Assembly (NCBI GenBank): GCA_949775045.1
Contig: OX459096.1
Coordinates: forward strand, 43,272,379-43,336,378
Direction: 5' to 3'
Source: Metridium senile
Lineage: Eukaryota > Cnidaria > Anthozoa > Actiniaria > Metridiidae
Length of the DNA: 64,000 nt
Part shown: positions 52,101-58,100 of the stretch, piece after piece
Position numbering within the stretch: position 1 is the first letter of the stretch
Layout: every line of letters begins with the position of its first letter
Program-made: the position numbers and the translations under genes
Notes under the pieces: generated by a model
Database searches by the model: none
Told to the model about the DNA's origin: nothing
The model's input: only the letters and a program-made list of their open reading frames with translations

Positions 52101-55100
52101 CATGAATCTGTTAGTTTATCATGAAACAACATATTACTACCATCAGCGCCATTTACTTATACCAAGTGTTGTTACATTTTGGCGTTCGTACAAGCAAAAA
52201 TTGATTGACAGTATAGATGGAAAAGAAGTAGACCTGGCTGGTGATGGGAGGCATGATTCCATGGGGCATTCTGCAAAATACTGTACATACTCAATCTTAT
52301 GCTGCACTATTGGCCTTATTATTGATGTTCTTTTAATTCAGGTATTTTAACATTGATTTTTAAAGTCATGTTTAAAGTGAACTAATTATACAACAGTATA
52401 AACTATGGCCTTCCTGTGTGTCTCCAACACTTTAAAGTACCAGTAGTTATGTGTGGCTGAAGACTGTCACTGTGATTCATTTCTTGGGTTGTACAAAGGA
52501 TGTTGGATTCATGGTTCACTGATCACCTAACAAAAAATATAGAATTAAGAATAAATAAGTTATTAAGTGATTTTATTTTCAGGCTAATGAAGCTGGTAGC
52601 AGTACTGCTATGGAATTTTTAGGGCACCAAAGGGCAATTGCCTACTTGTTCACTACTGGAATGATAATTAAGTCATTCATTTCTGATCGACATAAGTCTA
52701 TTGGAAAATGGATGCGTGTAGAATGTCCCAAAATGTGTAAAGAACTTGGGAAGCCTGTAGTACATCATTTCTATGACCTTTGGCATGTTGCAAAAAGTAA
52801 GTAGTTATGCCACACCTACATTTACACCCATAGTAGGCCAGAGAAACAACAAAGTTTCAAATAAATCACAGTGATGTAATTTTCAAAAAGGATCTTGTCA
52901 ACCTCCTGATAGCTCAAATTCATTTTTGCATTGTGTAACATATATGCCCTAACGTATTACATGTCTGCATACCGCAGATAAAATTGTAAACTTATATATT
53001 TGTTTCTATTATAAGAAATCCAGAAGATACTTATCAAATTAAGTAAAGAGAAATCATGTGAACTAATTGGGCGGTGGAGAAAAAAGTGTGTCAGACACTT
53101 TTATTGGTCAGTAACAACAACCAAGGAACTTCTGGGCGAGGTTAAACTAGCAAAATTTCAAAGTTTTTTCTCACATGTGATAAATGTCCACAAAGAATTG
53201 CCAAATCGCATATTTAATGCTTGTGCTCATGATCCTCTTACCAAAGAAAGGGTCTGGATGACAAAAGGTAATATTAAAATGCATTTGTATCAGCTACAAT
53301 GCATTTTTGGCAGAATTAGAAGTTTGTTTGTTCAAATTAATTGCAGGATCAGAAGCATATGGAAAACTTGTTGATGCCCTAAGTACAACCAATATTACAA
53401 CAGCAATAAAAAAGGCCTCTTCAAATGGTCAGACAAGTTATTTAGAAGGGTACCACTCGGTAATAAATCAATTTGCCCCTAAAATGTTGGCGTACTCTTA
53501 TCTTGGAATGCTAAGCAGGTACTAGACTATACAATGTATAAACAACTAACTACTTACCTGTCAGTAATAATAACACCCAGATCTTCTATTGTTCATCATC
53601 TTCCTCATCCAAATCCTGTTGAATAACAAAAAAGATAATTGATTCCAATCCATTGATATGATTCGTTTATTTTAGATCATATCTGGCAGCACTGCATTTT
53701 AATTATAATGTGAAAAGAGAGTCAGTAGTAAATGATCATGGTGAAGCCAACCTCAGAGTACACTATCCAAAATACAAGTATGGAGAAGCAACAGTCAAGG
53801 AAGAAAAAATACCACAAAAATTTGGTAAATTTACTTTAAAAAAAAAAATATCATTTAAAAAAATACTTGCTGGTAGTACTACAATTATATCTGATATTCA
53901 TTGACAGGTTATGTTGATGAGATTTATATGACATTGATCACAACACCAAGAGACAAGTTAAAAGAGATGGAAATTGAACTAGACAACAGTGTTCCTGGGC
54001 CAATGTGCTTTGGATTAGATAAAGATTCCAAACTAGATGCCATGGCTAAATACAGGCAAAGAAAAGCAAAAGCAACAACAATAGTCCCACCAACATGTAC
54101 AGGTATGTAATATATAAAATACATAGATAACCACAATAAACATTTTTCATGTGTATTAATTTTGTAGATGAACAACTTCGACAATGGACGACTATTGGAC
54201 CAAAACAAAGAAAGGCACCTTCATGCAAAAAATGTGGACAGCCAATGAAAGGGCACAACAGAAGCCAGTGTCAGCAACAGACATAATAATCATAACATGG
54301 GGACAAATACAAGGAATTAGTTTAAAAAAAATTATTGATAACTTGAAATTGATTTTTGAAATTTTTGAAATATCTATTCAGTGAGGATTTGTTGATATTG
54401 TGACCGAATAATAGTTGTTTTAAATGTTTTTGTTTTTTCTGTTCATCAACACCATCACTATATCATATCAGCTATAATCAAATATATGAATGTTTACCTC
54501 TGAGTCATTCTGTTCTTCATCATCTTCCTCCTCGAAGCCCTTGTATTGTCCATCTTCAGATGGGAACTGTTTTCTGATCTTATCATAGGCACAGCAAGGT
54601 AAAGGAAGCCTTCTTGATTTGCCAATATACTCCCATACCAGTCTTATAAACTGGCGGTAAGCTACTGATCGTAAGAACCTAGAAATGTAAATGGTTGATT
54701 ATAAAGTGTGACCACACTAAAAAGAAATAAAAAAATAATGGACATGTTCATGTAGATGAAACTGGCATCTCAAGTTGTGTGTATAAGCACTATATAAATA
54801 CAATAAATTATTTTTCTTGACAAATGAACAACAAATAAATAATAAAAAGTAAGTAATAAATACAGTAGAGACCTCGATCACAATCAATTTATTGTTCAAA
54901 CAATTCAAAATCCCTAAATAATTTATTGTGTCTGCTCTTGAATACACGAGAGAGAAATGTGAAATTCGACAAAAACTCTAAAGTTGGTTCATGGTTTTAT
55001 TTTCCACACAATAAATTTACAAACAAGAAATTAAGATAATATAGGAAAGTGGTTAACACTAGTATCAAACACCCTTACTCTAAATACAAAACAGTAAAAT

Positions 55101-58100
55101 TTACAGGTCACAGAAACAATGGCAATTACAATCTGAAATTAATAGTTACAATGAAGTTATAATGAATAATCTATATATTAGGTATAGTATACAAATACGA
55201 AAAAAATTTATCAAATATCTAAAAGCTAAAAGGCCCGACGGTTTCAACATTTGCTTCAACATCCTTTCGATTTTGATTCAACACTGATCCAACACGTTTC
55301 GACAATGTTGAAAGAGTTTAAATCAACAAAATTGAACGAATGTTGAAGCAAATGTTGAAACCGTTTGCCCGGGCCTTAAAGTCAAATATATCTTACTTGT
55401 GTTTGTCAACGCGATTTTCCTCGTACATAACAGTATAGCGCTTGTTTTTCCGCGTTTTCAATCCGATGGCGGCTATCTGGAGTACCCACTCATCTAGACA
55501 GCCAGATGAGAAGCCAGGGTGATCTGTTATACATGCTGGCGGTTCTTCGACGAGCTCTGCTAGCCTTTCTTGACACCGATCGATGTCGCAACAACAAAAG
55601 CATTCCTCCGGCTTTGTTATCAACTCCAAAGAGCAGTGTGTACACTTGCACCTGTGAAACAGTAAAATTGCTGTAAATAATTATCAAAAAAAATACACAA
55701 AACCATTCATTTTAAGGTAAGAAATCGATGGTAAGTATTATAAACATACCACGAATGAACGTCTTGCTCTTCATAACGTCTCTTTAGCATCGCTTCTTCC
55801 TCTTCTTCGGCGGCTAAAGTTTGTCTATATAACTCGTTCTCCTCTTCAGTAGCGATCGGCTCTATGTCCTCATCGTCCTGAGAGAGAATGTTTTCACCTG
55901 GGTTCATAGTAACGCTTTCTGAATCGCTCGAATAGTCAGTACTTTCTGAATCAGAAGCCATGTTGTATGCCAAGTCTATCAAGTAACTGACATCACGCGC
56001 AGACCGCTGTACAAAAAAATGCGGGCCAAGTAGGCGACAGTCCAGCGATGGCGAATAGGTGTTCAAAGTAGGTTTAATGACAATTTTTGTTAGGTAAATG
56101 CATTAAAACACCATTTTTTTTGGCAAAATAAGAAGGAATTACTTATTTTTCATCATTTAAAGCTAAAAAGGTTATGTTAAATTGCAGTTCACTTTCGTAG
56201 TATTCTTGTGCTAGTCCCCCTTTAAGTTAAGTTAACATTTATATTACCTATCGTTTATATTTTAAACACTGACACAGCCTATGCTATAGTTTACTCGCTA
56301 GTTTCCATCAATATATCTAAGGTTAATCTAGCATTTCCTGTTATACAAATCATTTGTAAAATTCAAGAAAATCCAATCAATGAATATTTCATTTCCTTTA
56401 TTCTAAATCATAAGAATAGTAAATGCAGCCATGAATAAAAAGAGAAAGCTTACTGCGGTTTTCCACTTTCTGTGAACTAAGACATTCCCACAGCTTATTG
56501 TGAAACACGTTTTTAGCTGCCGTCAATCAGAACTAATTAGTTGGTACCTTTTAAATCCTTGATTGACGGCAGCTAAAAACCTATTTAACAACGAGCCGTT
56601 GAAATGTCTGAGTTCGCAGAAAGTTGAAAACCTCAGTAAGGATAAGAATTATGGAAAAGCAGTATTGTTAAGGTGAGAGAGACTGGGAATGATATGCTTA
56701 TGATAGATTCACAGTAACAAGAGTCTGGAACCACATTAACAAAGATGACTTTTGCTCATAATATAATAATTGTATAAAATTATGTCAGACATCCATGGCA
56801 GACAGACTTTATCCACACAACCAAAATACAGAATTATTGTTTGCAATTAAATAAATTAATAGGAACTAAGCATATGATTTTAAAACATCTTGATATACGA
56901 TTATGACAAAAAGATTTATTTTCTACATATCGACAATCATCAGTGTCATAAATAAATATCTGATGGATAAAATAAATCAATTAACAAATAAATCAATCAA
57001 TCAATCAATAAATATAAATAAACAAATCAAATAACAAATAAATTAATTAATTAATTAACAAACAAATAAATAAACAAATTAATTAATAAACTAATAAATT
57101 AACAAACAAATAAAAGGCCAAATAAATAAATAAATTAACAAATAAGTAAAAATAAATTACCTCCATTGTATGTGTTTTACCACTGGATGTCTGGCCGTAG
57201 GCAAATATTGTACCATTGTATCCATTGAGAACATCTATAAACACAATATAACAATTATTACTGATTAATTATTACCACTATTTGTTATTCTTTGTCAGGG
57301 AAGATGTGAATTTATCAGAATTTTTGTATTTGAAATTCAAACATAAATTATGATATGAGGGCATCATAATTACTTACTCAAACTACATGTAGTAACAGTT
57401 AGTAAAATAAGAGGCATTGAAAGGTATATTTGAACATATTTCACACAGAGATGTGCTATATTAAATACAATATCATCAACACCTATATGCACTAGCAATA
57501 CTCTACCAGACTCAATGTCCTTACAAACAAACATACATGTAATATATAAGGTAGAGTATTGCTGCCTTATTTTTATCTCATTATTAACCTTTTGAAACAG
57601 ATCTATATCAAGTTTAACTATAAAGATATAGAAATCTAGGATTCTAAAAAAACATTACACACCATAAATAATTTGTGACTTTTGATAATTCTATAAAGAT
57701 GTTACAATATCAAATATGCTCACTGATTAACATTTTGAAATATAATTCATTCCATGCTCTGCCCAGGTCAAAAGTGTTTATATATGCATGGGATATTTCA
57801 AGGGAGTGACCTTATTAAGATAAAAGCCCAAAATATAAACACTGATCAAATTTCATCATCAAGACCTATTTTCAGACAATTGTAGAAGCATTAAAGAATA
57901 ACTCTATAAGAAAATGCACTTAGATTGTAAACACTGGTTGTTCTTTAGAACTGTTTTATTTACCAAGGGTTGGAATACAATTGTACATGTAATAAGATTT
58001 TTTAACCAATTCAAAATCTCTCTAGATTGATAATGTTAATTTTTCAGATTTCATAAATCAGATGTTTATTTGTGGGATGATAATAATGAAATAAAGTACT

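Follow-up and report, generated by a model that had tools for sequence, protein, structure and literature searches.

A Kolobok DNA transposon of Metridium senile in which a THAP-DDE transposase gene is paired with a KolX gene for the P2X7 ballast domain

The window analyzed here is a stretch of 64,000 bp from the actiniarian Metridium senile (assembly GCA_949775045.1, contig OX459096.1, forward strand, 43,272,379 to 43,336,378), and positions are given within it. A complete Kolobok DNA transposon spans 49032–56225. It contains two open, converging genes: a THAP-DDE transposase gene on the plus strand and, on the minus strand, a gene for KolX, a protein with the ballast domain known from the P2X7 receptor. 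TTAA followed by AGGGGGACTAGCAC is seen at 49032 (plus strand) and 56225 (minus strand), and these are the sole two matches in the window at up to 4 mismatches. Because the two ends flank the ballast-domain gene on both sides, the gene lies within the element, as an earlier note on this DNA had claimed.

The target-site duplications (TSDs) are TTAA at 49032–49035 and 56222–56225. They are followed inward by terminal inverted repeats (TIRs) of 14 bp at 49036–49049 (plus) and 56208–56221 (minus). Subterminal inverted repeats of 22 bp (GTGACGTCAGTTACTTGATAGA) are located at 49252–49273 (plus), 216 bp from the left end and 91 bp before the transposase ATG, and at 55975–55996 (minus), 225 bp from the right end and 13 bp before the ATG of the ballast-domain gene. 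The two partners differ by 1 mismatch, and no further match is present in the window at up to 5 mismatches. The termini are AG...CT, corresponding to the 5'-RR...YY-3' termini of Kolobok, and the same is seen at 5 other loci. Twenty copies besides that of the window were fetched for comparison. Both ends, with the Kolobok TSD TTAA at each side, are seen in the window copy and in 19 of the 20, and the flanks of the copies look unrelated. A TSD longer than TTAA was considered and rejected: the flanks of the window copy share about 18 bp (TAAGTTAAGTTAACATTT). Since the fetched copies share TTAA only, this likeness is a feature of the target of the window copy. A scan of the window with Rfam gave no family at the gathering threshold.

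The transposase gene (49365–54286, plus strand) is predicted to consist of 12 exons, all with GT-AG splice sites, and to encode 878 amino acids with no stop codon or frameshift. Exons 1–6 are 49365–49685, 50301–50486, 50609–50683, 50889–51075, 51235–51463, and 51804–52341, and exons 7–12 are 52583–52796, 53016–53267, 53347–53518, 53676–53824, 53908–54102, and 54168–54286. A 280-bp tandem duplication at 50572–50916 gives two similar small exons. A THAP domain (PF05485), which is usual but not universal in Kolobok, occupies residues 6–86 (E-value 1.1e-12). For the catalytic part, 76 relatives were found among 7997 candidates scored. D507, D574, D604, W606, H607, H664, C680, H682, and E728 (numbering of P0025) are invariant in 16 aligned transposases. 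These columns agree with the Kolobok signature described by PMC9587614 and PMC6004289: a DDD/E transposase with a C/DxxH motif and a zinc finger between the second D and E. Pfam detects no DDE family in the whole transposase, and Mutator appears below its cut-off, for a fragment only. With a structure model of the transposase relative P0022 (predicted local distance difference test score, pLDDT, 86.5), the best Foldseek match is the Hermes transposase (E-value 9e-5, template modeling (TM) score 0.20), and the other 50 matches listed are mostly integrase cores. The modeled fold thus weakly suggests Hermes as the nearest known structure.

The KolX gene occupies 53586–55961 on the minus strand. 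Its four exons (55961–55750, 55651–55397, 54678–54498, and 53615–53586) all have GT-AG splice sites and join in one open frame of 225 codons, bearing out the bounds proposed earlier. The last exon, of 30 nt, is the least certain part of the gene model. It is predicted from splice sites only and is located within intron 9 of the transposase gene (53519–53675); exon 3 read past its donor meets a stop within a few codons. With this putative exon, the 3' ends of the two genes overlap (53586–54286). The N-terminal tail of the protein is acidic. The acidic excess is 0.27 per residue in the window, with a mean of 0.22 and a minimum of -0.125 among 47 relatives with a tail. Intron 2 contains a hairpin at about 55225–55380 with 38-bp arms, 92% complementary, that resembles a nested, short inverted-repeat element; the 19 complete fetched copies have no indel there.

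Exons 1–3 match the Pfam family P2RX7_C (PF20478) with an E-value of 7.2e-11 (42.8 bits, cut-off 23.5), and no other Pfam family is found up to an E-value of 10. As P2RX7_C stands alone, KolX contains no channel segment, as had been noticed before: a P2X channel has two membrane segments and an adenosine triphosphate site, and the 225-residue protein has P2RX7_C only. The identification of the cysteine-rich tail domain of P2X7 is likewise upheld, as the motifs listed in the earlier note are present in order and the Pfam match, profile, fold, and cysteines agree. A search of 5.8 billion proteins gave 21 relatives, including 13 from anthozoans, one from a sea urchin, and one from a ribbon worm. 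A profile search extended these to 89, including fish, molluscs, amphioxus, an acorn worm, and a tick. The pipefish Entelurus has four KolX-like proteins, 90–98% identical, encoded on contigs that each differ in length (four lengths), a pattern expected for a mobile gene. A profile built from 13 relatives finds P2X7 chains in PDB with a best E-value of 3.5e-10, and among the 5 sequences listed with E-values of at most 1, 4 are P2X7. Because the window protein is spliced, its closest relative P0001 (59% identical over 91%) was folded instead with AlphaFold2 (mean pLDDT 76.1). In the Foldseek search with this model, ranks 1–14 are all P2X7 with a probability of 1.00, and the next match has 0.03.

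All seven cysteines corresponding to rat P2X7 positions 477, 479, 482, 498, 499, 506, and 572, which we take to be the zinc-binding positions, are kept in the window KolX. They are near invariant where covered among 103 relatives and the window protein, for example in 60 of 62 sequences at 479 and 92 of 96 at 498. The residues of the guanosine diphosphate (GDP) site of rat P2X7 are R546, H547, R574, R578, and K583 (PMC7016195). Two of these five (R546 and R578) are kept in the window KolX, and H547, R574, and K583 are replaced by Ser, Tyr, and Ser, respectively. Among 104 sequences, R546 is kept in 102, R578 in 97, H547 in 66, and R574 and K583 in 0. It is very improbable that KolX is a nucleotide-sensing switch which binds guanosine triphosphate or GDP like the P2X7 ballast and licenses transposition according to the state of the cell: the two nearly invariant arginines and the frequent H547 would fit it, but the three replacements in the window protein do not, and as R574 and K583 are kept nowhere, none of the set has the complete guanine-nucleotide site of P2X7.

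The genome searched comprises 389 Mb in 169 contigs. Transposase exons 6–7 have 40 DNA matches, of which 34, including that of the window, cover the full length at 100%, a rounded figure. The 18-mer of TTAA and TIR occurs 34 times in each orientation, and its reversed control 0 times in either. These occurrences form 33 pairs and 2 singles; 31 pairs span 6924–7205 bp, one spans 8161 bp, and one spans 36,350 bp. The 6924-bp form, seen in 7 of the 33 pairs, is without the 280-bp duplication. The KolX exon-3 match is enclosed by 32 of the 33 pairs, the exception being the interrupted 36-kb copy. In total, 35 exon-3 matches of the window family are found on 12 contigs, and 3 of them are outside terminus pairs.

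The copies are nearly identical. Between the window copy and each of the 19 complete fetched ones there are 1–6 substitutions; the indels are a 10-bp insertion in 18 of the 19 and a 280-bp deletion in 4. In the remaining fetched copy, L030, one side is truncated by a 200-N assembly gap. Its left part consists of this gap and neighboring DNA and was dropped from the substitution range and the count of transposase frames. The KolX protein is identical in all 20 fetched copies, and the transposase frame is open in all 19 complete ones. At position 52637, in the transposase gene, the window copy differs from all 20 others. The element is an autonomous-looking and very recently mobile Kolobok transposon, probably of the Kol0 type, and forms a unit bounded by TTAA and AGGGGG... 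ends. A second gene, encoding the ballast-fold protein KolX, characterizes the Kol0 lineage. L030 and L031 (G000:C2:25865292-25879858) are in the same orientation and 7173 bp apart, with the 200-N gap at the left end of one; they are either a tandem insertion or an assembly artefact.

The pairing of the two genes extends beyond the window family. Pfam P2RX7_C has 78 matches in the genome, and a transposase protein has at least 91 (76 of 514 candidates scored). For the linkage count, the 65 transposase matches that include the beginning of the catalytic region were taken, and 26 later exons of the same loci were dropped. A KolX match is present within 8 kb at 53 of the 65 loci, by chance expectation at 0.2, and all 53 are on the opposite strand and downstream, that is, convergent. 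The 53 loci are not independent: 34 belong to the window family, and the other 19 to about three families, judged by score and frame length. Five of the 12 loci with no P2RX7_C match nearby were inspected, and three of them, L049 (one of four equal-scoring loci), L052, and L053, have a convergent KolX gene in split exons, missed by the Pfam scan. Conversely, 25 of the 78 KolX matches have no scored transposase nearby. Six of these were inspected, and in L045, L046, L047, L011, and L017 pieces of a transposase are present on the strand opposite to KolX. Six diverged loci of 9.9 kb (L043–L048) were fetched; in five, KolX and transposase pieces are enclosed by TTAA-AG inverted repeats of 15–206 bp. 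These facts show that transposase and ballast gene move together in the window family and in other families, so that the earlier proposals of a stable part of Kolobok elements and a constant linkage with the THAP transposase hold to this extent.

The same data bear on the origin of the gene at this locus. The first description of ballast-domain proteins treated them as ordinary animal genes (PMC7016195), and the diverged ballast-domain locus L048 has no transposase match nearby; both would fit a host gene captured by the window element only. But the diverged families carry the same gene at the same convergent place, five within TTAA-AG repeats, and KolX of the window family lies at distances of 0.60–0.69 from that of six others. 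Such a capture is thus exceedingly improbable, and its form limited to the window locus or the window family is ruled out by the linked diverged families. Strongly diverged ballast-domain loci are L048/L001 (G000:C5:15124713), L002, L003, L004, and L012, with stop codons within L002–L004; they are either decayed copies or domesticated KolX. Scans of viral contigs for relatives gave 30 and 4 pattern matches, none of which was confirmed.

Selection was measured between families, as the copies within a family are nearly identical. Among families other than that of the window, the KolX domains show proportions of nonsynonymous differences (pN) of 0.12–0.37 and of synonymous differences (pS) of 0.56–0.96, the latter mostly saturated. 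Against the window family, pN is 0.38–0.52 and pS is 0.77–0.98. The ratios that can be estimated between families are 0.11, 0.16, and 0.16, and two pairs that include the diverged L001 have ratios of 0.42 and 0.44. The ratio for L011 and L017, of the same family, is 0.59, and L017 includes a stretch that reads as frame-shifted. These comparisons show purifying selection on the KolX domain between families, a test of which the earlier note had suggested. The word cargo, used there, is a wrong one: families whose KolX domains have diverged from that of the window at 60–69% of residues still keep the gene.

The constant convergent pairing, the purifying selection, the zinc-built fold, and the lack of any other Pfam domain favor a structural role beside the transposase. 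In the simplest reading, which we consider probable, KolX is a structural, non-catalytic subunit of the transposition complex. Its zinc-knit helical ballast fold would then serve as a compact scaffold, which, together with its acidic and probably disordered N-terminal tail, would bind the transposase or its nuclear partners and help the transposase find or pair the element ends. The two near-invariant arginines may bind phosphate, of nucleic acid or of a nucleotide. The same fold may have been reused in P2X7 as the cytoplasmic tail, as inferred in the literature.

KolX could instead face the host, protecting the element's transposase, DNA, or RNA against silencing or the sensing of DNA damage, or adjusting copy number. 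Accessory proteins of Kolobok vary by lineage, with exonucleases, RecQ helicase, and homing endonuclease described in PMC9587614, so that varied helpers seem to be recruited, and the antisense 3' overlap of the two genes could regulate both. The similar subterminal repeats near both gene starts and the convergent order at 53 of 53 linked loci fit a joint function in cis instead, and a host-facing role is considered unlikely.

Several points weigh against KolX as a structural subunit. Other Kolobok lineages are described as having no KolX (PMC9587614). A phmmer search of PDB with the single KolX protein found no chain. In the Foldseek search with the P0001 model, the best E-value is 1.3e-3, none reaching 0.001, and the TM score is 0.40 over the whole chain. 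The linkage is not absolute. The earlier note had named Kolobok copies without the gene as a refuting case; the window family speaks against that case, as 32 of its 33 terminus pairs carry the gene, but two of the five inspected exceptions, L050 and L051, are without KolX. Both look broken, and neither the window element nor L044 has a DNA match in the stretches fetched for them. The diverged KolX copy L048 has no transposase match in 9.9 kb, and L045, a copy of 2.8 kb, retains KolX together with just the C-terminal part of its transposase. Co-divergence of transposase and KolX is weak: Spearman correlation is 0.29, with 171 of 5040 permutations as high, 0.36 without the window (31 of 720), and 0.12 when L045 is also left out (40 of 120).

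The hypothesis of a P2X7 domain in Kolobok is right in its main part and was already published in 2022. According to Kojima and Bao (PMC9587614), KolX is the second Kolobok protein of the Kol0 lineage, with the P2X7 ballast fold and 7 conserved cysteines, and the lineage is known from vertebrates, annelids, cnidarians, and sponges. They derive P2X7 from a P2X4-like gene that fused with KolX, and regard Nanor as likely domesticated KolX. Their link between the P2X7 tail and Kolobok appears to rest on sequence similarity. In the open-licence PMC literature, the link between the P2X7 ballast and a transposon was found in this paper alone; PMC9319628 names P2X7 and Kolobok once each. The protein described here shares the position as second Kolobok protein, the ballast fold, and the 7 cysteines with their KolX. 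What differs is that a further family is followed in one genome, with genome-wide linkage, gene structure, convergent overlap, and recent activity added; the very recent family with both genes open and the genome-wide linkage test are new.

The window KolX is similar to the cytoplasmic ballast of P2X7 (PF20478; PDB 6u9v and others) in profile (E-value 3.5e-10), fold, and all seven zinc cysteines, and differs from the receptor in having no P2X channel, only 2 of the 5 GDP-site residues, and an acidic N-terminal tail. NANOR-like and ZCD proteins (Rump et al. 2020, PMC7016195) are likewise short and stand-alone and share this zinc-cysteine domain; that earlier work traced it across animals with no mention of transposons in its main text. 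Xenopus Kolobok (XKol) transposases likewise combine THAP, DDE, and an H2CH finger with AG termini and TTAA, and KolX is absent from the main text of that paper (PMC6004289).

The element is inserted in an intron of a kinesin-like gene. The flanking exons, at about 47905–48016 and 57161–57240 on the minus strand, match adjacent positions of Pfam Kinesin, 69–93 (E-value 6.7e-12) and 94–129 (E-value 0.00039, which does not reach the curated cut-off). KolX and this host gene run in the same direction (minus). Just beyond the right end of the element, at 56449–56640, is an inverted repeat of 81 bp that is 85% complementary and has a loop of 30 bp. At 58157–58379 there is a direct repeat of 104 bp with 87% identity and a spacing of 119 bp.

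A recently moved family, together with diverged families that have the same gene pair, offers a natural protein pair with known ends, in which the role of the ballast domain is testable. The job of this domain in a transposon would bear on its job in P2X7. A stronger proposal, which we regard as improbable, is that KolX is an obligatory zinc-built switch subunit that senses phosphate via the two arginines, and that the vertebrate P2X7 tail inherited this transposon switch. If it were true, the tail that links channel opening of P2X7 to downstream signaling would be a former regulatory switch of a transposon.

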